Source: Amycolatopsis sp. FBCC-B4732 (GTDB lineage: Bacteria; Actinomycetota; Actinomycetes; Mycobacteriales; Pseudonocardiaceae). Taken from it: DNA of 64,000 bases. This document shows positions 9,702 to 53,557 of this stretch, one piece after another; the stretch's first letter is position 1; each line of letters opens with the position of its first letter. The notes below the pieces were generated by a model, which searched no databases, was not told the DNA's origin, and saw nothing but the letters and a program-made list of their open reading frames with translations. The stretch covers positions 8,722,501 to 8,786,500 of the forward strand of contig NZ_CP095376.1 in NCBI RefSeq assembly GCF_023008405.1, written 5' to 3'. Both the position numbers and the translations under genes were made by a program.

Positions 9702-11873
9702 CTACCGGCCGCCGCCCATGTACTTCGGGTCCGGTGGCGGTAGCTCCATCCTCGGCTGGCTCGCGTCCATGATGTTCTTCATCGCGCCGAACCAGGTGCG
9801 GGCCGGGGCCTTGCCGCCGAAGATGTTCCCGCCGCCGCCGCAGACCCGGACGTTGCCCGGGCCGGCGTCGCAGATGCCGCCCTGCCCGCCGCCGAACTTG
9901 AACGTCATCGCCGCGCCCGCCAGCTGCGGGGTACCGCCGACGAACGCCGCCGAGACGTTGCCCTGCGTCGTGCCGGTCTTGCCGATGATCGGGCGGTCCC
10001 AGCCGACGTCGGCGGCGGCCTTGGCCGACGTGCCGCCCGGCTGGTCGTCCTTGCTCATGCCCACGGCGAGGGTGTTCGCCAAGCCCTCGGGCACGGCCTG
10101 CTCGCACGGTGCTTCCTTGACCGGCACCGGCTTGCCGTTGCGGTCGGTCACCCCGGCGATCGGGGTCGGCGGGCACCAGACCCCGCCGGAGAGGATCGTC
10201 GCGGCGACGTTGCCCATCTCCAGGCCGCTCACCGGGCTGAACCCGAGCGTGAACGCGCCCAAGCCCGGACCGTTCGGCGTGGGGCCGTACGCCTCCGCCT
10301 GGCTCTGGCTCTTGCCCTTGACGTTCGGGTCGACCGGGCCGCCGCCGGTGTTGCTCGCCATCGTCTCGCGCAGGCCGAGCCGCTTCGCCATGTCGATGGC
10401 GGGACCGGTGCTGCCGAGCTGGTCCTCCAGCGCCACGAACGTGGTGTTCGGGGAGGTCGCCAGCGCCGTCTGGAGGGTCGCGTTGGCGCCCACCCGGCTG
10501 TAGTCGCCCGCGTTGCCGACGCAGTACCAGTACGTGGCCGGTTTCCCGGTCGGCGTGGTGCTGCAGCCGCCCTTGCCGGTCGTGAACACGCGCGAGGTGT
10601 AGGAGTCCGGCATGTCGACCGGCGAGTAGATCCCCGCGATGCCCTTGTCGAGGACGGCCGCCGACGTGAAGATCTTGAACGTCGACCCGGCGCCACCGGT
10701 GTTGTAGACACCCGCGGGCAGCGCGTACGTCGTCTGGCCGGCGTCCTGGTCCTGGCCGTAGTCGCGGTTCGCGGCCAGCGCGACCACCTCGTGCCGGTTC
10801 TTGCCCGGTCTGATCAGCGACAGCGTGTTCGCGACGTATTTCTGGGTCTTGTCGACCTGCGCCTCGGCCGAGACCTTCGCCTCGTGGTTCGCGCGCTCGT
10901 CCAGCGTGCTCTTGATCGTGTAGCCGCCGGTGTAGAGCTGGTCCTTCGTCATCCCGGACTTGAGCAGGTAGTCCTCGACGTACTGGCAGAAGAAGCCGGA
11001 CTCCGGGCCCGCGCCGATGCAGTTGGCCGGCGGCTTCGCCGGGAAGTCCGGCACGACGCCCAGCGGCTCGCCCTTGAAGCGGTCGGCGTCGGTCTTCGCC
11101 AGCTTCTTGTTCTCCACCATGCGGTCGAGGACGAGGTTGCGGCGCGCGGTCGCCTTGTCCGCGTGCTTCCACGGGTCGTTGTTGATCGGGTTGTTCACCA
11201 GCCCGGCCAGCAGCGCGGCCTGCGGCACGGTCAGCTTCTCCGGCGTGGTGTTGAAGTACGCGTGCGCGGCGGCGCCGATGCCGTAGATCTGCCGGGAGAA
11301 CTCGACGATGTTGAGGTAGCCCGCGAGGATCTGCTGCTTGGAAAGCTTCGTCTCGAGCTGGATCGCGATCCGCGCTTCCTTGAGCTTGCGGGCGATCGAC
11401 TGCTCCTGGGCCTTCTTCTGGCCGACCGGGTCGTTCCGGTAGACGACGTTGATCAGGTAGTTCTTCGTGTACTGCTGGGTCAGCGTCGACGCGCCCTGCG
11501 TGTCCGCGCCGGTGGTGTTGCTGACGGCCGCGCGCAGGGTGCCCTGCCAGTCGACGCCGTGGTGGTCGTAGAACCGCTTGTCCTCGACGGAGACCAGGGC
11601 CCACTTCATGGCCTCGTTGATCTGGTCCGGCGTGATCGGCAGCCGGTACTGGTCGTAGAGGGTCGCGATCGGCTTGCCGGTGCTGTCGGTGACGGTCGTC
11701 ACCAGCGGCGGCGGGATGTCGGCGAGGTCCGACGAAGTCTTCTCCACCGTCTCGCTGGCCTGGTTGGACATGACACCGGCGGCCCCCACGACCGGGAAGA
11801 GCATGCCGGCGACGAGCACCCCGGCGAGCAGGCAGAGGCCGATGAGCTTGAACAAACCGTCCGCTTTTCGCAC
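9702..11873 (-). CDS. ponA2: Class A penicillin-binding protein (PonA2-type)
   Basis: A bifunctional peptidoglycan synthase of 723 residues, starting at GTG 11873. One N-terminal membrane helix (about 10-35) is followed by a GT51 glycosyltransferase domain with VSVEDKRFYDHHGVDW and GASTLTQQYTKN. The transpeptidase domain has STFK (Ser near 397), SPNTT in the SxN position and KTGTTQG (near 629). There is no PASTA domain. Convergence on the kinase and divergence from whiB4 matches the Rv3681c-Rv3683 arrangement, supporting the ponA2 name. Confidence 0.9.
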   Translation of the reverse strand: MRKADGLFKLIGLCLLAGVLVAGMLFPVVGAAGVMSNQASETVEKTSSDLADIPPPLVTTVTDSTGKPIATLYDQYRLPITPDQINEAMKWALVSVEDKRFYDHHGVDWQGTLRAAVSNTTGADTQGASTLTQQYTKNYLINVVYRNDPVGQKKAQEQSIARKLKEARIAIQLETKLSKQQILAGYLNIVEFSRQIYGIGAAAHAYFNTTPEKLTVPQAALLAGLVNNPINNDPWKHADKATARRNLVLDRMVENKKLAKTDADRFKGEPLGVVPDFPAKPPANCIGAGPESGFFCQYVEDYLLKSGMTKDQLYTGGYTIKSTLDERANHEAKVSAEAQVDKTQKYVANTLSLIRPGKNRHEVVALAANRDYGQDQDAGQTTYALPAGVYNTGGAGSTFKIFTSAAVLDKGIAGIYSPVDMPDSYTSRVFTTGKGGCSTTPTGKPATYWYCVGNAGDYSRVGANATLQTALATSPNTTFVALEDQLGSTGPAIDMAKRLGLRETMASNTGGGPVDPNVKGKSQSQAEAYGPTPNGPGLGAFTLGFSPVSGLEMGNVAATILSGGVWCPPTPIAGVTDRNGKPVPVKEAPCEQAVPEGLANTLAVGMSKDDQPGGTSAKAAADVGWDRPIIGKTGTTQGNVSAAFVGGTPQLAGAAMTFKFGGGQGGICDAGPGNVRVCGGGGNIFGGKAPARTWFGAMKNIMDASQPRMELPPPDPKYMGGGR

Positions 11874-25275: not shown

Positions 25276-25950
25276 TCAGCGAGCGCGGCGGGCCAGACGC
25301 TCCGGGTCCAGGATCAGCACGCTCTTGCCTTCGAGCCGCAGCCAGCCGCGGTGGGCGAAGTCGGCGAGGGCCTTGTTGACGGTCTCGCGCGAGGCACCGA
25401 CGTACTGGGCGATCTCTTCCTGCGTCAGGTCGTGCGTGACCCGCAGCAGGCCCGCCTCCTGGCTGCCGAACCGCTGCGCGAGCTGCAGCAGCGCGCGCGC
25501 CACGCGGCCCGGGACGTCGGTGAAGATCAGTTCCGCGACCATGTTGTTCGTCCGGCGCAGGCGGCGCGCGACCACGCGCAGCAGCTGCTCGGCGATCTCC
25601 GGGCGGGTCGAGATCCACTGGCGCAGGGCCGGGCGGTCCATGGTGACCGCGCGGACCTCGGTGACCGTGGTCGCGCTCGACGTCCGGGGGCCGGGGTCGA
25701 AGATGGACAGCTCGCCGAACATGTCGGACGGGCCGAAGATGCCCAGCAGGTTCTCGCGGCCGTCCGGCGACTTGCGGCCGATCTTCACCTTGCCGGACTG
25801 GATGATGTACAGCTTGTCGCCGGGTTCACCCTCGTTGAAGATGACATGGCCGCGGGGGAACTCCACGGATTCCAAGGTCTGGGCCAGCGCCTCCGCCGCT
25901 GCCGGCTCCACACCCTGGAAAATGCCCGCACGGGCCAGGGTTTCGTCCAC
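25276..25950 (-). CDS. crp: Crp/GlxR-type cAMP receptor transcription regulator
   Basis: 224 residues from GTG 25950. Residues 10-120 form a cyclic-nucleotide-binding domain with the phosphate-binding block [20 protein letters not shown] long dimerisation helix follows. The C-terminal winged helix has [21 protein letters not shown] as recognition helix, nearly the pattern of M. tuberculosis CRP and corynebacterial GlxR. It sits next to nth and the small membrane protein as in M. tuberculosis (Rv3676). A candidate binding site lies 54 bases upstream, suggesting autoregulation. Confidence 0.93.
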
Positions 25951-26003: not shown

Positions 26004-26019
26004 CGTGACGCCGATCACT
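26004..26019. promoter_or_regulatory. Candidate Crp site upstream of crp
   Basis: CGTGACGCCGATCACT matches the TGTGA-N6-TCACA dyad at 9 of 10 arm positions, allowing C or T first. It lies 54 bases upstream of the crp start codon. Confidence 0.4.
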
Positions 26020-47388: not shown

Positions 47389-48666
47389 TCAGCGGTAGAG
47401 CAGGTAGTGGCGACGTCTGCGGTCGAACTCGGCGAGCTCGGCCCGCCAGGCCCCGGTGACCTCGTCGACGCCCGCCCCGGCGTCGACCATGGTGCGCAGC
47501 CGGTCGGAGCCGGAGAGCTTGTCGATGTAGTTGTCCGGGCGCCACGCGAAGACGCCCGGGTGCAGCGCCTTCGCCGTGACGAGCATGGCGACCGCGGTCC
47601 GGATCGCGTCGAAGGCCCGCGGGTCGCTCACGCTCAGCTGCACGCCACCGCAGGTCTGGTTGACGAACTTGCTGAACGTCGGCACGAAGTAGACCTCGCG
47701 GAACTTCGCGCCCGGCAGCGCGAGGTCCTCGAGCTTCTCCCGCCAGCGCCAGTCGAGCCCGGGCGCGCCGATGATCTCGAACGGCCGGGTCGTCCCGCGG
47801 CCTTCGGAGAACACGGTGCCCTCGAACATCCCGGTGCCCGGGTAGACGAGCGCGGTGTCCGGGGTCGGCATGTTCGGGCTCGGCAGCACCCAGTTCAGCC
47901 CGGTCTGCGCGAAGAGCGTGTCGCGCTGCCAGCCGCGGACCTGGACGACTTCGAGGCGATCCAGCTGCACGCCGTCGCCGGGCAGGAACTCCTCGGCGAA
48001 GTAGCGCGCCAGCTCGCCGGCGGTCATGCCGTGCTGCTGGACGATCGGCTTCTTGCCGATCCCCGAGGAGAACTTCGGGTCGAGCAGCGGGCCGGCCGCC
48101 CGGCCGCCGATCGGGTTCGGCCGGTCGAGCACGACGAAAGCGGCCTTGACCTGCGCCGCGGCCACCATCGCCGTGTAGAGCGACCAGATGTAGGTGTAGA
48201 AGCGCGCGCCCACGTCGGCGATGTCGAACACGACGGTGTCGACGCCCGCCTTGGTGAACAGCGAAGCGAGCTTCGTCGCGTCGACGCCGTACGCGTCGTA
48301 CACCGGGACACCCGTGCGGGGATCGGTGTAGTCGCCTTCGGAGCCGCCGGCCTGCGCGCTGCCGCGGAAGCCGTGCTCGGGCCCGAAGGCCGCGACCGGC
48401 TTGACGCCGGCCGCGACCATCGAGTCGACGATGTGGTCGCCGTTGAGCAGCACGCCGGTGGGGTTCGACAGCACCCCGAGCTTGCGGCCCTTGAGCGGCC
48501 GCCAGCCCTGCGCGGCCAGCTGCTCCGCACCGGTGAGCACCCGTCCGTGGTTCTGTTCGGCCTGCGCCGGCTGCTCCGGCTGGGCACCCGCGACGGCCGA
48601 GCCGCCCGCCAGGACCGGGACGGCGGCCGCGCTCGCGCCCAGGAAGTGGCGCCGGTTGAGCGTCAC
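47389..48666 (-). CDS. namZ: DUF1343 exo-beta-N-acetylmuramidase, NamZ-like, Tat-exported
   Basis: 425 residues from GTG 48666, which overlaps the GH3 stop (GTGA). The N-terminus LNRRHFLGASAAAVPVLAGG is a twin-arginine signal. The DUF1343 domain has LGVLSNPTGV, FGPEHGFRGSAQAG, FDIADVGARFYTYIWSLY, LDRPNPIGG and SEGRGTTRPFEIIGAP. B. subtilis NamZ (YbbC) of this family removes terminal MurNAc from peptidoglycan chains, and the neighbouring nagZ and murQ genes are the same as here. Function is inferred from family plus cluster. Confidence 0.87.
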   Translation of the reverse strand: MTLNRRHFLGASAAAVPVLAGGSAVAGAQPEQPAQAEQNHGRVLTGAEQLAAQGWRPLKGRKLGVLSNPTGVLLNGDHIVDSMVAAGVKPVAAFGPEHGFRGSAQAGGSEGDYTDPRTGVPVYDAYGVDATKLASLFTKAGVDTVVFDIADVGARFYTYIWSLYTAMVAAAQVKAAFVVLDRPNPIGGRAAGPLLDPKFSSGIGKKPIVQQHGMTAGELARYFAEEFLPGDGVQLDRLEVVQVRGWQRDTLFAQTGLNWVLPSPNMPTPDTALVYPGTGMFEGTVFSEGRGTTRPFEIIGAPGLDWRWREKLEDLALPGAKFREVYFVPTFSKFVNQTCGGVQLSVSDPRAFDAIRTAVAMLVTAKALHPGVFAWRPDNYIDKLSGSDRLRTMVDAGAGVDEVTGAWRAELAEFDRRRRHYLLYR

Positions 48667-50453
48667 CAGGTCAGCCCGTGGCCGAACGGGTACTTGACCG
48701 TGGTCAGGTCGGCGCCCGCCGGAATGTCGACCGGCAGCTTCCCGACCGGCTTCGTCTCGCCGAGCACCACCTTGGCCAGTGCTTCGAGGGTCGGCGTGAT
48801 GTAGCCGTAGGTGGCCAGCCACGTCTTGACGGTGCTCGGGTAGCCGGCGTCGTACGGAATCTGCGCGGCGACCGCGACGACCGGTTTCCCGGTGGCCTGG
48901 AGGGCGTCGAGCAGCTTGGTCTGCAGCGGGAAGGTGGCGATGTTGTTGGTCAGCACGACGACCAGGTCGGTGTTCTTGGCGTTCGCGACGGCCTGCGCGA
49001 TCTGCGCGTCCGTCGGGGCCTGGCCGGTCTGGTAGGCGGTCGCGGCCGTGCCGTGCGCGGTCAGCTTCTGGGCGAGGGTCGCGGTGGTCGAGACACCCCA
49101 GCCGGTGACGAGCGCGGTCGCGGGCTTCTGCTTGAGCGGCAGCACCCCGGCGTCGTTCGCTACGGCCGTGATGCCGCGGTCGGCGATGTCCTGCGCGGTG
49201 GCGAGGCTCGCCGGGATGCCCACGGTCTTCATGACGCGGTTCGTGTCGACGAACGGCGAGAACAGGATGCCGCGCTTGAACTTCAGCTTCAGCACGCGCA
49301 GCACGCTCTGGTCGATCCGCTGCATCGGGATGTCGCCGGTCTTCACGGCGGTGAGCACCGAGTTGATGGCGAGGTCGAGGTGCACCGGCATGAGCAGCTG
49401 GTCGATGCCGGCCTTCAGCGCGAGCACCGGGATCTCGGCGTCGCTGTGCAGCTGGCGCACGCCCTGCATCTCGAGGGCGTCGGTGACGACGACCCCGTTG
49501 TACCCGAGCTCGTTGCGCAGCTTGCCGGTGATGATCGGCTTCGACAGCGTCGCGGGTTCGAGCGACGGGTCGAGGCTGGGAAACTGGATGTGCGCGCTCA
49601 TGATCGAGTCGACACCGGCCGCGATGGCGGCCTTGAACGGCGGCACGTCGGTGGCCCGCCACTGCGCCTCGGTGCTGTCGATCCGCGGCAGCCCGGTGTG
49701 GCTGTCGGTCGGCGCGGCGCCGTGCCCGGGGAAGTGCTTGCTGGTCGCGGCCACGGACTTCTGGAAGCCCTTGAGCTCGGCGGTGACGAAGTCACTGGCC
49801 AGCCCGGGCTGCCCGGCGAAGGACCGCACGCCGATGACCGGGTTGGCGGGGTTCGAGTTGACGTCCGAATCGGGTGCGAAGTCCTGGTTGATCCCGACGG
49901 CCCGCAGTTCCTGGCCGAGGATGGTGGCGGCCTTGGTGGCCCGCCCGGTGTCCCGCCCGGCGGAGATGGCCATGGCGTTCGGGAACTCGGTGGCCGGCGC
50001 CCCCATCCGCGTGACGGTGCCACCCTCCTGGTCGGCGGCGACCTGCAACGGGATGTGCGCCCCGCTGGTGATGGCGGCCTTCTGCAGCCCGTTGGACAGC
50101 TTGGCGACCTGGACCGGGTCGTCGAAGTTGTCGCGCGTGTCGTTGTTGAAGTAGATGACACCGCCCAGGTGGTACTTCCGGACCACCTGCGCCGGGGTGT
50201 CCACGCCGAAGTCGGTCTGGTTCTTCGGGTTCACCTCGTCGGCCGTCTTGCCGTTCACCCAGGTGATGAACAGCTGCCCGACCTTTTCTTCCAGCGTCAG
50301 CCCCCGCAGCGCCTGCGTGGCGGCGGCCTCGGCCTGGGCGTCCACGCTCATCCGCGGCGCGCTCGCCGCGGTCGCGACACCCACACCGGTGAACGCGAGC
50401 ACCCCCGCGACGGGCAGGGCGAGCGCATGGAACCTCCGATTTCGGGTCGTCAC
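48663..50453 (-). CDS. nagZ: Secreted GH3 beta-N-acetylglucosaminidase, NagZ-like
   Basis: 596 residues from GTG 50453. A signal peptide (FHALALPVAGVLAFTGVGVATAASA) leads to a GH3 domain with ADQEGGTVTRMG, the NagZ His/Asp loop SKHFPGHGAAPTDSHTG and nucleophile loop VVVTDALEMQGV. An additional C-terminal GH3 domain (about 420-596) is present, as in Bacillus NagZ (YbbD). It releases GlcNAc from muropeptides or chain ends so NamZ can act on the exposed MurNAc. It is first in the cluster. Confidence 0.9.
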   Translation of the reverse strand: MTTRNRRFHALALPVAGVLAFTGVGVATAASAPRMSVDAQAEAAATQALRGLTLEEKVGQLFITWVNGKTADEVNPKNQTDFGVDTPAQVVRKYHLGGVIYFNNDTRDNFDDPVQVAKLSNGLQKAAITSGAHIPLQVAADQEGGTVTRMGAPATEFPNAMAISAGRDTGRATKAATILGQELRAVGINQDFAPDSDVNSNPANPVIGVRSFAGQPGLASDFVTAELKGFQKSVAATSKHFPGHGAAPTDSHTGLPRIDSTEAQWRATDVPPFKAAIAAGVDSIMSAHIQFPSLDPSLEPATLSKPIITGKLRNELGYNGVVVTDALEMQGVRQLHSDAEIPVLALKAGIDQLLMPVHLDLAINSVLTAVKTGDIPMQRIDQSVLRVLKLKFKRGILFSPFVDTNRVMKTVGIPASLATAQDIADRGITAVANDAGVLPLKQKPATALVTGWGVSTTATLAQKLTAHGTAATAYQTGQAPTDAQIAQAVANAKNTDLVVVLTNNIATFPLQTKLLDALQATGKPVVAVAAQIPYDAGYPSTVKTWLATYGYITPTLEALAKVVLGETKPVGKLPVDIPAGADLTTVKYPFGHGLTW

Positions 50454-50679
50454 GACCAGCCTCCCAGAAAGTTGCGGACGCCCGGCGGACGTGAGAAGTC
50501 CACTCGGAGGCGCCAGTATCGGGAAGCTACTCACCGAATCCGGTGATGTCCATCGACCGACCGCACCAACGGACCGTTCGTACCCGGATCGGTAGGAAAG
50601 TCGCCGTTCGCAACGTGCACAGAGGTCCGAACGGGTGGCGTGGCCCGGGCTCGCGTGCCGCGCACGCACCCAACTCGCC

Positions 50680-50929
50680 AAATAGACGAGGCGGCGCCCG
50701 TGGCCAAGGGCCACGGGCGCCGCCTGCAAGCGCGAACTTCTCGGGCGACCAAGCGTGCAACTCTGGTCGTACCTACATGGACTCGGCGTGTGGCGTCCCA
50801 CTACGCAGTCCCTAGACGACGAGCCTCCCGCGGCGCGCTGCGCGTGGGTACCCGGAGTCCGCGCACGGAGGTTTGCCGGGGTGGAACAGGCTTCTCTTCT
50901 ACCTGTTCCCTGGCCGACCGAACGTCCGC
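50680..50929 (-). ncRNA. Candidate Ms1-type RNA (RNA polymerase-binding), by synteny and structure
   Basis: The 640 bases between the nagZ start and the HAD gene's stop have no gene. On the minus strand there is a full transcription unit of about 250 nt: promoter TTGAAG-17-TAGAAA, then GGGAACAGG/CCTGTTCC pairing around 50881-50912 with a purine-rich loop, partly complementary 5' and 3' regions, and a 16-bp terminator stem ending near 50680. In M. tuberculosis the Ms1 homolog MTS2823 lies directly downstream of the Rv3661 HAD gene on its strand; this is the same place and strand. Identity needs a covariance search. Confidence 0.6.
50690..50724 (-). terminator. Terminator of the candidate Ms1-type RNA
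   Basis: GGCGGCGCCCGTGGCC (50690-50705) pairs perfectly with GGCCACGGGCGCCGCC (50709-50724) over a 3-base loop. On the minus strand it is followed by CTCGTCTATTTGG. Confidence 0.7.
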
Positions 50930-50935
50930 ACCTAC

Positions 50936-50964
50936 TTTCTACGCCGTGAGCCCGGTCACTTCAA
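50936..50964 (-). promoter_or_regulatory. Sigma-A-type promoter of the candidate Ms1-type RNA
   Basis: On the minus strand, TTGAAG (50964-50959) and TAGAAA (50941-50936) are separated by exactly 17 bases. The start site would fall near 50929. Confidence 0.55.
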
Positions 50965-51092
50965 GTGCGCGGATGGGTGCACCGGTACAGAGGCTGGATC
51001 GGGTGACACAGGCACCCAGCGCGACGGACAATTCGGGGCTGGGCCAAGCAAAGTGGCGGCCGTACGGCCGTGTGGGTGGCGAGGCCCGCCGG

Positions 51093-51923
51093 CTACCGGG
51101 ACCGACGGCGACGGCTGAGGCCGTACCAGGTCGCTCCGGCGGCCACCGCGCCGACGCCGAGGGCCACGATCCCCGCCGATCGGGTGGGGATCCGGGTGCG
51201 CAGCGACATCGGCCGGTCGAACGCCAGGATCGGCCAGCCGCGGTCGAGCGCCTCGCGCCGCAGGAGCTTGTCCGGGTTGACCGCGTGCGGGTGCCCGACC
51301 ACCTCGAGCAGCGGGATGTCGGTGCTCGAGTCGGTGTAGGCGAAGCACTCGGCGAGGTCGTAGCCGTGCGTCGCGGCGAGCTGCTTCGCCGCGACGGCCT
51401 TGTTCGCCCCGTAGCAGTAGAAGTCGACTTCGCCGGAGTAGCGGCCGTCGACGATCTGCATCCGCGTCGCGACGCTGCGGGTCGCCCCGAGCATTTCGGC
51501 GACGGGCGCGACGACCTCCTCGCCGGTCGCCGAAAGCACGATGACGTCGTGGCCGTCCGCGCGGTGGCGCGCGATCAGTTCCGCCGCTTCCGCGTACACG
51601 AGCGGGTCGACGACGTCGTGCAGGGTTTCGCGGACGATCGACGAAACCTGGGCGACGTCCCAGCCCGCGCACAGCGCGGAAACCTCGGCGCGCAACCTCT
51701 CGGTTTTGTTTTCGTCGGCGCCGGCGAGTGAAAACACAAGCTGCGCGTAGGCGCTTCGCAACGCGGCGCGACGGTTGATCAAACCCTCCCTCAGCAACGG
51801 TTTGCTGAACGCCAGCGCGCTCGACGAAGCGATGATCGTCTTGTCCAGGTCGAAGAACGCGGCCACCGCGTGCTCCGGGCCCGGCTTCCGGGTGCGCGAC
51901 GGCGCACTGCTCGGTTCGGCCAC
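51093..51923 (-). CDS. HAD-superfamily phosphatase with C-terminal membrane helix (Rv3661-like)
   Basis: 276 residues from GTG 51923 (VAEPSSAPSRTRKPG); GTG 51971 would add 16 residues. HAD motif I is FFDLDKTI, motif II VIVLSATGEE, and motif III/IV AYTDSSTDIPLL. The type is the SerB-like HAD-IB group. The C-terminus holds a hydrophobic stretch (SAGIVALGVGAVAAGATWYGL) and a basic end, so it may be membrane-tethered. It lies between the two RNA loci, as Rv3661 does in M. tuberculosis. Confidence 0.85.
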   Translation of the reverse strand: MAEPSSAPSRTRKPGPEHAVAAFFDLDKTIIASSSALAFSKPLLREGLINRRAALRSAYAQLVFSLAGADENKTERLRAEVSALCAGWDVAQVSSIVRETLHDVVDPLVYAEAAELIARHRADGHDVIVLSATGEEVVAPVAEMLGATRSVATRMQIVDGRYSGEVDFYCYGANKAVAAKQLAATHGYDLAECFAYTDSSTDIPLLEVVGHPHAVNPDKLLRREALDRGWPILAFDRPMSLRTRIPTRSAGIVALGVGAVAAGATWYGLSRRRRSR

Positions 51924-52091
51924 GTGCCCAGGATAAGAGCTTGATCGCGGCGCGTCCCGTTGATCCACCACGGACGCGCCGCGCCGCCGGAAATTCCATG
52001 ACAGGAAGGCACTTCCGGCGCGCTGTGCCGTTACCGAACTGTGTGCCTCGTCCGGCGCGCGAACCGGCGCCCGGCGGAGTTACAGTGAGGG

Positions 52092-52192
52092 AGCCCGGTG
52101 TCCAACCGGGCCGGTTCAGTCCGACCCCCCGGGGCTGAACCCACGGCGGCCCTCGTCCCTCCCCCCTGGCGAGGGCCGCCCTCTTACTTTCC
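52092..52192 (+). ncRNA. 6C RNA (actinobacterial C-rich hairpin small RNA)
   Basis: Two stem-loops with at least six C in their loops follow each other: GGTTCAG/CTGAACC (52113-52141) with a CCGACCCCCC loop, and GGCGGCCCTCG/CGAGGGCCGCC (52145-52180) with a TCCCTCCCCCCTGG loop, then CTCTTACTTT. A short hairpin GCCCGG/CCGGGC precedes them. A -10 element TACAGT lies at 52081-52086. The place between the HAD gene and ssd, on the ssd strand, is that of B11/6C RNA in M. tuberculosis. 6C RNA regulates division and replication genes there. Confidence 0.85.
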
Positions 52193-52362
52193 GCTAACCT
52201 CCGCCGATTTTCTTTGGCCCGCGAGGAATCCGCTTTCCGGCCGAGGCGGCTCGTCGGCTGCGGCGGTTCACGCCGCTTTCCACCGCACGTGCGTCACGGG
52301 TGGGCGCGATCCTGCCACGGCTCACCGACAAACCGGTTCGCGAGCGGTTCCCCGGGCGGAAG

Positions 52363-52389
52363 TTGTCCACAGCACCCGGGTTGTCCACA
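52363..52389 (+). promoter_or_regulatory. Two tandem perfect DnaA boxes upstream of ssd
   Basis: TTGTCCACA occurs at 52363-52371 and 52381-52389 in the same orientation, 18 bases apart. This is the consensus DnaA box of Streptomyces and mycobacteria. No other exact copy was seen in the window. They lie about 95-120 bases before the ssd start. Confidence 0.6.
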
Positions 52390-52483
52390 GCCCGCCGCCC
52401 GACCCGTTGTGCCCCCGTGCCCCCGCCCGCGACGGTGGAAGCCGGGCCACCCACGGCCCGCACCGACGACGGGGGAGGAACGC

Positions 52484-53557
52484 ATGACGGGGGAACGACC
52501 GCTGGTGGTCGCCGCGGACGAAACCGTGCTCGACGAGATACTGCGCGTGGCGGCGGTCGCGGGCTGCGAGCTGGACCGGGCACCGGACCTGACCGCGGCA
52601 CACGGCCACTGGGCCCGCGCGCCCCTGGTGGTCCTCGACGAAGAAGCCGTGCGCCTGCCGCCGGCCCTGCCCCGGCGCCCCGGGATCCTGCTGGTCTGCA
52701 AGGGCAGCCCGGGACCGGAGACGTGGCGCCACGCGTTCCGCGGCGGCGTAGAGCGCGTGATCTCGTTGCCGGACGAGGAGACCGAACTCGCCGGCGCGTT
52801 CGCCGACGTCGTCGAAACACCGGCGGAGGAACCCGGCCTGGTGCTCGGTGTCGTCGGCGGCCGAGGAGGTGCGGGCGCGTCCGTCTTCGCGGCGACGCTG
52901 GCGCTGGCAGCGGACCGGGAGCCGGGCGGCGCCCTGCTGGTGGACTGCGACCCGCTCGGCGGCGGCCTGGATGTGTTGCTGGGTCTGGAAAAAGCGCCCG
53001 GCCCGCGTTGGTCGGACGTACGCCTGACCGGCCGCGTCTCACTGCCATCGCTGGCCGCGACCCTCCCACGGCGAAGACACCGCGGCGGCAGCCTGCCGGT
53101 GCTGGCGTGCGGCCCCGAGGGCGAAGGCCCGTCGGTCGAGTCCCTGTCGGCGGTCCTTTCCGCGGGCCGCCGCTCGGGCCGCACGGTGGTGTGCGACCTC
53201 CCCCGCACCCTCACCGACGCGGCCGCGGAAGCGGTGGCGGTCGCCGACCTGGTGGTGCTGGTGGTCCCGGTGGAACTCCGCGCCTGCCTGGCGGCGAAGC
53301 AGGTCCTGCGCCGCCTGTCGGAGCTGACGGCCCGAACGGGGGTGGTCGCATGTGGACGTTCGAGAGCCGAAGCCCCCCAAGCCCACGCGGCCGGCCTCCT
53401 GGGCCCACCCGTACTGGCCTCGATGCCCCCGGAACGCGGCCTCCCAGCCGCAGTGGAGCGCGGCGAGTTCCCGGCCAAATCAACCGGCCCGGTGGCCAAG
53501 GCAGCAGCCCGAGTCCTGACCGCAGCCCGCCGCGAAGCCCGAGCGGCCACCCGATGA
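52484..53557 (+). CDS. ssd: Septum-site-determining protein Ssd, MinD/CpaE-like ATPase
   Basis: 357 residues from ATG 52484 with GGGGGAGGAA ahead. An N-terminal receiver-like region (about 1-110) is followed by a MinD/ParA-like domain: GVVGGRGGAGASVFAATLAL as P-loop (the usual GK-T/S lysine is replaced, so a deviant or lost P-loop), LLVDCDPLGGGLDVLLG and VVCDLPRTLTDA. It starts the tad operon as CpaE-like proteins do, and Rv3660c (ssd) has this place in M. tuberculosis, where it alters septation. It overlaps the next frame by 4 bases. Confidence 0.85.
   Translation: MTGERPLVVAADETVLDEILRVAAVAGCELDRAPDLTAAHGHWARAPLVVLDEEAVRLPPALPRRPGILLVCKGSPGPETWRHAFRGGVERVISLPDEETELAGAFADVVETPAEEPGLVLGVVGGRGGAGASVFAATLALAADREPGGALLVDCDPLGGGLDVLLGLEKAPGPRWSDVRLTGRVSLPSLAATLPRRRHRGGSLPVLACGPEGEGPSVESLSAVLSAGRRSGRTVVCDLPRTLTDAAAEAVAVADLVVLVVPVELRACLAAKQVLRRLSELTARTGVVACGRSRAEAPQAHAAGLLGPPVLASMPPERGLPAAVERGEFPAKSTGPVAKAAARVLTAARREARAATR

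Follow-up and report, generated by a model that had tools for sequence, protein, structure and literature searches.

Ms1, a small RNA that holds RNA polymerase in the resting cells of bacteria related to Amycolatopsis, is reported to be expressed and bound to the RNA polymerase core in Mycobacterium smegmatis, as is its homolog in M. tuberculosis (PMC4191392, PMC11077062; available passages of both). In the available parts of PMC9130861, Ms1 candidates are reported in 824 species, including Amycolatopsis and 26 other genera under Pseudonocardiaceae, ‘beta acetylhexosaminidase’ is among the phrases used for synteny, the Ms1 candidates of Rfam are stated to come only from species close to mycobacteria, and expression and RNA polymerase binding are reported for the Ms1 of Streptomyces coelicolor. 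The Streptomyces RNA was read as 6S-like, with the Ms1 equivalent placed on the other strand, in passages of PMC8539372, and this reading is contradicted with data in PMC9130861. 6S RNA (RF00013) has in common with Ms1 a long interrupted hairpin resembling open promoter DNA and the binding of RNA polymerase, but its target is the sigma70 holoenzyme and its length about 180 nt (PMC9130861, PMC11077062, in the passages available). The initial annotation of the locus described here, in which Ms1 was said to replace 6S RNA, was thus loosely worded, as Ms1 binds the core and 6S RNA the holoenzyme.

The locus lies in a window of 64,000 nt (the whole stretch of DNA that was analysed) from Amycolatopsis sp. 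FBCC-B4732, where the RNA and its neighbours are arranged as follows:

51093..51971, minus strand: HAD-IB hydrolase gene, Rv3661-like by position and family, upstream neighbour (TIGR01490, PF12710)
50680..50929, minus strand: RNA of 250 nt assigned to Ms1 (RF02566 over its full length; covariation in 46 family copies)
48663..50453, minus strand: beta-N-acetylhexosaminidase (NagZ)-like gene, downstream neighbour (NF003740)

The HAD gene scored 193.9 bits against the HAD-IB model TIGR01490 (cut-off 98.3), is 97-98% identical to the copies of A. vancoresmycina (L207) and of Amycolatopsis sp. (L219 and L222), and is separated by 639 nt, from its stop (51093) to the start at 50453, from the NagZ-like gene, which scored 162.6 bits against NF003740, below the cut-off of 207. 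The distance from the HAD stop to position 50929 is 163 nt on the same strand. Among 73 genus and family Ms1 loci, the HAD gene was found beside Ms1 in 70 and the NagZ-like gene in 63, some flanks being short; the three loci without a HAD gene are the non-syntenic L033 and two that are cut by contig ends (L048 and L066). The position directly downstream of an Rv3661-like HAD gene on its strand, from which the initial annotation had named the RNA, is borne out by the TIGR01490 match and by the 70 loci.

The covariance-model check that had been proposed with that identification was performed with the Rfam Ms1 model (RF02566), which aligned to 50929-50680 over its full length (1-304 of 304) with 73.3 bits (E 4.7e-18; 701 bases searched). 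A search of the whole genome returned the same match (E 1.6e-17) as the only credible one; a second match (L002, 27 nt, E 0.8) was discarded as noise. The score lies below the Rfam gathering score of 162 for RF02566, consistent with the model having been derived from close relatives of mycobacteria, and at gathering scores Rfam reported only tRNA and 6C RNA in the window. The 6C RNA (RF01066, 66.2 bits) is located at 52110-52184 on the plus strand, between the HAD gene and the divergent ssd gene. At E <= 0.01, RF02566 matched 59 of 60 genus genomes, 96 of 120 family genomes (including five genus genomes also present in the 60-genome sample) and none of 14 control genomes; no match was obtained at this threshold in the other genus genome and the other 24 family genomes. 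Matches at E up to 10 in four of the 14 controls were regarded as noise, and weak second matches in three genomes (G006, G032 and G164; L058-L060, 26-28 bits), with a coding-like start and a terminator end, as false. A class-wide search gave matches in 28 of 296 genomes, of which 17 passed the cut-off; all 17 belong to one genus of a sister family and, judging by their scores, are probably mycobacteria.

Compared with Mycobacterium Ms1 (RF02566; MTS2823), the Amycolatopsis RNA shares the full-length model match, the order of domains, the position after the HAD gene, the promoter type and a terminator of its own. It differs in length (250 nt, against about 300 nt in Mycobacterium), in a shorter apical part, for which the middle of the model is skipped, and in its downstream neighbour, which is an oxidoreductase gene in Mycobacterium and a NagZ-like gene here. 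The NagZ-like neighbour fits the Ms1 assignment, since beta acetylhexosaminidase is a synteny phrase in PMC9130861 (available part). A HAD neighbour is also common to the S. coelicolor Ms1 (scr3559; PMC9130861).

The structure of the RNA was divided as follows:

50865..50929, minus strand: 5' hairpin domain, covarying helices 1-3, mapped by alignment column positions
50730..50864, minus strand: long interrupted helix, helices 4-10, from alignment and covariation
50689..50725, minus strand: intrinsic terminator with a 17-bp stem, a 3-nt loop and a weak T tract; helix 11, which covaries

The folding energy was -140.2 kcal/mol (z -5.35), a value as low as which was reached by none of 200 shuffles. 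Covariation was assessed in 46 family copies with less than 92% mutual identity, drawn from 71 promoter loci, for which the RNAalifold consensus contained 65 pairs with 94.3% of the cells able to pair. Changes on both sides were found at 40 of these 65 pairs (shuffled mean 23.8), and the covariation score was 0.301, against 0.139 for shuffled alignments and at most 0.079 for slid versions; neither value was reached in any of 500 shuffles. Covariation was found in all three domains, namely the 5' hairpin, the long helix and the terminator, and the long-range pairing noted in the initial annotation is confirmed. The least variable part of the long helix consists of ACCCACGCG (50849-50841) and CACGCTTGGT (50757-50748), both of which are present in the Rfam consensus; helices 6 and 7, which they form, hardly vary and flank a large unpaired part, with the covariation located elsewhere. 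A long hairpin with an internal bubble, in which the bubble-flanking helices are the most conserved, is a trait of Ms1 and was found here. An apical helix (GUCGU/ACGAC), which lies outside the RNAalifold consensus, was fully paired in 40 of the 46 copies, in one of them (L073) by a compensated change. Among six Streptomyces-like copies (genus inferred), ACCCACGCG was present in all six and ACGCTTGGT in five, the sixth being one letter off.

The promoter region contained three elements:

50959..50964, minus strand: -35 element TTGAAG, read directly; register kept in all 71 family copies examined
50936..50941, minus strand: -10 element TAGAAA, read directly; conserved
50946..50959, minus strand: GTGA-N6-TCAC dyad GTGACCGGGCTCAC, centred at -23.5 between the -35 and -10 elements; conserved

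Both hexamers, separated by a 17-nt spacer, were read directly at 50964-50936, as the initial annotation had stated, and G50929, after a 6-nt discriminator, is the likely start site. The body described there as about 250 nt is 250 nt by sequence (50929-50680), and the short T stretch after the stem was found, though it is weak (CGTCTATTTG); the sole departure from the earlier description is the terminator stem, given as 16 bp, which is 100% complementary over 17 bp. The promoter was not flagged by a strict sigma70 scan because the scan requires T as the last letter of the second hexamer. The pattern TTGNNG - 17 or 18 nt - TA[CG]AAA, or a close variant of the second hexamer, was present just upstream in 71 of 71 family copies, the variants having been picked after the sequences had been seen; this conservation argues against a chance occurrence. 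The 71 promoters are the 77 first loci minus L002, L033, L058-L060 and L063, the last of which was left out as its RF02566 match stops before the terminator. In L063 (G040:C1:10003864-10010071), a close relative, the Ms1 copy enters a G-rich stretch at the expected terminator position, and the missing terminator may reflect an assembly error or a real loss. A genuine transcription unit, with its own sigmaA-like promoter and intrinsic terminator, is confirmed at the level of sequence. Synteny, promoter, covariation and terminator agree with the RF02566 match and support the identity first proposed from synteny, so that the RNA is almost certainly Ms1. Since Ms1 has already been predicted for Amycolatopsis, the RNA belongs to a known kind, and this part of the reading is largely known (the genus is in the list of PMC9130861, available part).

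The dyad GTGACCGGGCTCAC runs from the last letter of the -35 element into the spacer. GTGA-N6-TCAC is the core of the CRP site, an operator of the TGTGA-N6-TCACA kind, and 8 of 8 core letters are present at 50946-50959. In 46 non-redundant family copies the dyad was exact in 29, one letter off in 14 and worse or missing in three. In the 42 copies with a 17-nt spacer, the GTG and CAC columns carried 1.84-2.00 bits and the letters between and after them 0.34-1.19; the TTG of the -35 element is fixed in these columns because the pattern used to excise the family promoters demands it. For the sister family, 24 copies from the class-wide search were scored (L102-L105 were left out), with the dyad exact in 16, one letter off in four and worse in four. 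The promoter-plus-dyad pattern occurs once in the genome of Amycolatopsis sp. FBCC-B4732, at Ms1.

A further scan was made of named genomes, in which only the -10 element and the 5' part of Ms1 were fixed and the spacer was left free so as to avoid selection for the dyad; it returned at least 118 loci. Among the matches listed, 105 of 118 had a same-strand HAD gene no more than 600 nt upstream, and in these HAD-linked loci the dyad was exact in 67, one letter off in 25 and worse in 13. The 13 loci without a HAD link among the matches listed comprised four chance hits, one cut upstream and eight actinobacterial loci without a suitable HAD match, in which the dyad was exact in four and one letter off in four. 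The chance hits, in Amesbacteria, Cecembia, Bacteroidetes and Anaerolineae (L120, L167, L171 and L181), had neither a HAD gene nor an in-register -35 element and were rejected. Exact dyads among the matches listed numbered 71 in 118 spacers, against 34 in 919,840 bases outside promoters. In 112 in-register promoters (those with an in-register TTG out of 113 among the matches listed, L111, which is cut upstream, and the four chance hits being excluded) the dyad columns stood out, with 1.37-1.85 bits for GTG and CAC.

Eight of the 13 HAD-linked copies with a poor dyad among the matches listed are titled Mycobacterium and include M. colombiense, M. arosiense, M. alsense and M. interjectum; the remaining five comprise two Pseudonocardia MAGs and one copy each from Mycobacteroides franklinii, Rhodococcus yananensis and Tomitella cavernea. 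The four named Mycobacterium species are slow growers, as is M. shimoidei, which retains the dyad in the same scan. Unlike the promoter studied here, the six Streptomyces-like promoters all lack the dyad, and since it is poor or missing in some family, sister-family, named and Streptomyces-like copies, Ms1 does without it in places. No exact dyad was found in 54 HAD-downstream stretches from other families, a result that says little since no Ms1 was recognised in most of them; these stretches derive from the 55 that were read of 100 HAD-matching genomes outside families f1 and f2 (117 in all), L299 being without downstream sequence.

The dyad in the spacer is apparently new. Promoter elements of Ms1 have reportedly been mapped by Sikova et al. 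2019, where the dyad may be described. CRP is not mentioned in the main texts of PMC9130861, PMC4191392 and PMC11077062, nor in the scr3559 paper (PMC8539372), and no literature linking Ms1 or MTS2823 to CRP or the cAMP receptor protein was found, including in the passages available of PMC12709188 and PMC3207917.

A second, non-syntenic Ms1-like gene (L033 1501-1761; G061:C46:86074-86334; 95.6 bits), near a TetR-like gene, was observed in one Pseudonocardiaceae genome (G061) that also has the usual copy (L061); L033 may be a paralog, a mobile copy or contamination. With L033 as query, full-length RF02566 matches (74-106 bits) were obtained on four large Rhodococcus plasmids:

NZ_CP070614.1, 3014-3270: plasmid Ms1-like RNA (L304)
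NZ_CP021355.1, 2992-3248: plasmid Ms1-like RNA (L306)
NZ_CP113952.1, 3014-3266: plasmid Ms1-like RNA (L307)
NZ_CP093381.1, 2992-3241: plasmid Ms1-like RNA (L305)

Three more records had partial similarity. No Ms1 like L033 was found in phages, and none was found among plasmids with the Ms1 of the window as query. The exact dyad was absent from the 60 nt upstream of all four plasmid RNAs (best 6 of 8 letters), and no annotated HAD gene lay within 3 kb in the three annotated plasmid records. These four copies may represent a plasmid-borne branch of the RNA polymerase-binding RNA; the word ‘plasmid’ is absent from the main text of PMC9130861, and ‘plasmid-borne’ and ‘megaplasmid’ from PMC11077062. 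Partial Ms1 similarity beside HAD, ssd and tadA genes was observed in NZ_LR134469.1 (L308; Tsukamurella tyrosinosolvens ‘plasmid 27’, 154 kb), a record that may be mislabelled since its gene order is that of the chromosomal locus.

The proposed regulator is encoded 25 kb away in the same window:

25276..25950, minus strand: crp gene, proposed regulator (PF00027 and PF13545; PDB CRP/FNR chains)

Its product matched the PDB CRP/FNR chains 3h3u and 3d0s, which we take to be those of M. tuberculosis, at E about 1e-119 and with identical letters across the putative recognition helix, and CRP was present in all 30 family genomes tried (83-100% identity). In M. tuberculosis the motif bound by CRP is similar to the E. 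coli one (PMC4117774, available part). Sites with 7 or 8 of the 8 core letters occur upstream of crp in 20 of the 30 family genomes (one exact), and CRP therefore probably reads such sites, which also suggests autoregulation of crp. In the window, an exact dyad is located at 26005-26018, 55-68 nt upstream of the crp start, and six others at 11689, 14837, 26693, 27259, 41069 and 61753; the window has eight exact dyads against a mean of 1.02 in shuffles made without control for codon usage. The core and the presence of a CRP gene are thus shared with the CRP operator; the flanks and the core-promoter location (centre -23.5) differ. On this evidence CRP would, on balance, be expected to bind the dyad. 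The location of the centre at -23.5 is the ground on which repression is proposed, and for this effect, judged from the position of the site alone, the chances appear about even.

The likeliest alternative, which is possible and less than an even prospect, is that the RNA is Ms1 with the dyad read by another Crp/Fnr member or by an unrelated factor, or with CRP bound in a non-repressing role. The genome has 31 Crp-type helix-turn-helix matches at E <= 0.001, including 11 that attain the family cut-off by themselves or together with their neighbours, and the flanks of the dyad (A before GTGA, G after TCAC) presumably depart from the full CRP consensus. Against another reader stand the complete match to the eight-letter CRP core, the fact that no Crp-type match in the genome is better than the CRP of this window, and the sites upstream of crp; against a non-repressing role, a centre at -23.5 covers the space between the hexamers, unlike the usual positions of activators. 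Other regulators act on Ms1 in mycobacteria: other controls exist, since LexA is reported at the M. tuberculosis Ms1 locus (PMC4191392) and Ms1 was the most affected stationary-phase gene on depletion of other regulators (PMC12709188), in the available passages of both. Among 65 LexA-box-like matches in the window (<=3 mismatches), none lies within 50,000-52,500, and LexA was rejected as a candidate for Ms1 here. In its main text, the CRP ChIP study of M. tuberculosis mentions none of MTS2823, Rv3661 and Rv3662c, and the three sRNAs with CRP sites that its available part names do not include MTS2823 (PMC4117774); the passages available of PMC3207917 tie CRP to MTS0997 and not to MTS2823.

The dyad could instead be a part of the promoter, or a DNA structure needed by RNA polymerase, and no operator, which we consider improbable. 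It stands in fixed register with both hexamers, and its columns hardly move at 17-nt spacing; yet the Streptomyces-like copies have a TACAAA -10 element without the dyad, the Mycobacterium copies with a poor dyad retain both hexamers, and the halves of the dyad mirror each other, as in a site for a dimer. The 163-nt distance on the same strand and the Ms1 match under the curated cut-off might suggest that the stretch is no more than the 3' untranslated region of the HAD gene with its terminator, or else a 6S RNA. This is very improbable, given a promoter of its own that is conserved in all 71 copies examined, covariation that is strong throughout the body, the full-length Ms1 match, and no RF00013 match in the genome at E up to 10, against matches in eight of 14 control genomes.

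The locus is thus very probably best explained as an Amycolatopsis Ms1 RNA with its own promoter and terminator, to which a proposed CRP operator within the promoter is added. Transcription from a primary-sigma-type promoter would stop at the intrinsic terminator of the unit and yield an RNA of 250 nt. The folded RNA would comprise the 5' hairpin, the terminator and, between them, a long interrupted helix that resembles an open promoter, as is typical of Ms1. CRP on the GTGA-N6-TCAC operator would keep sigmaA-RNA polymerase off the promoter, and lower CRP occupancy would release Ms1 synthesis. Ms1, once made, would in all likelihood bind the RNA polymerase core as its relatives do, and its expression here is likewise inferred from them. 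RNA decay also contributes to the Ms1 level in M. smegmatis. Whether cAMP-CRP directly gates Ms1 through an old core-promoter operator, retained by most of the sampled copies from Pseudonocardiaceae and Mycobacteriaceae and decayed in some members of the genus Mycobacterium, is a proposition that could equally well prove right or wrong. If it is right, the cAMP state of the cell would be coupled to the pool of free RNA polymerase, and copies without the operator should also be made in exponential phase. In M. smegmatis the stationary-phase increase of Ms1 is about 130-fold (PMC4191392), and it is about ten-fold in M. tuberculosis from an already very high exponential level (PMC3207917), in the passages available; the latter would fit operator loss in slow growers, on the assumption that M. 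tuberculosis has lost the operator. The regulator that turns Ms1 on is left open in the available part of PMC4191392. A CRP-like operator fixed in most copies of two families would allow a cheap test of how a polymerase-controlling RNA is itself controlled, in families that include Amycolatopsis, a genus of antibiotic producers.
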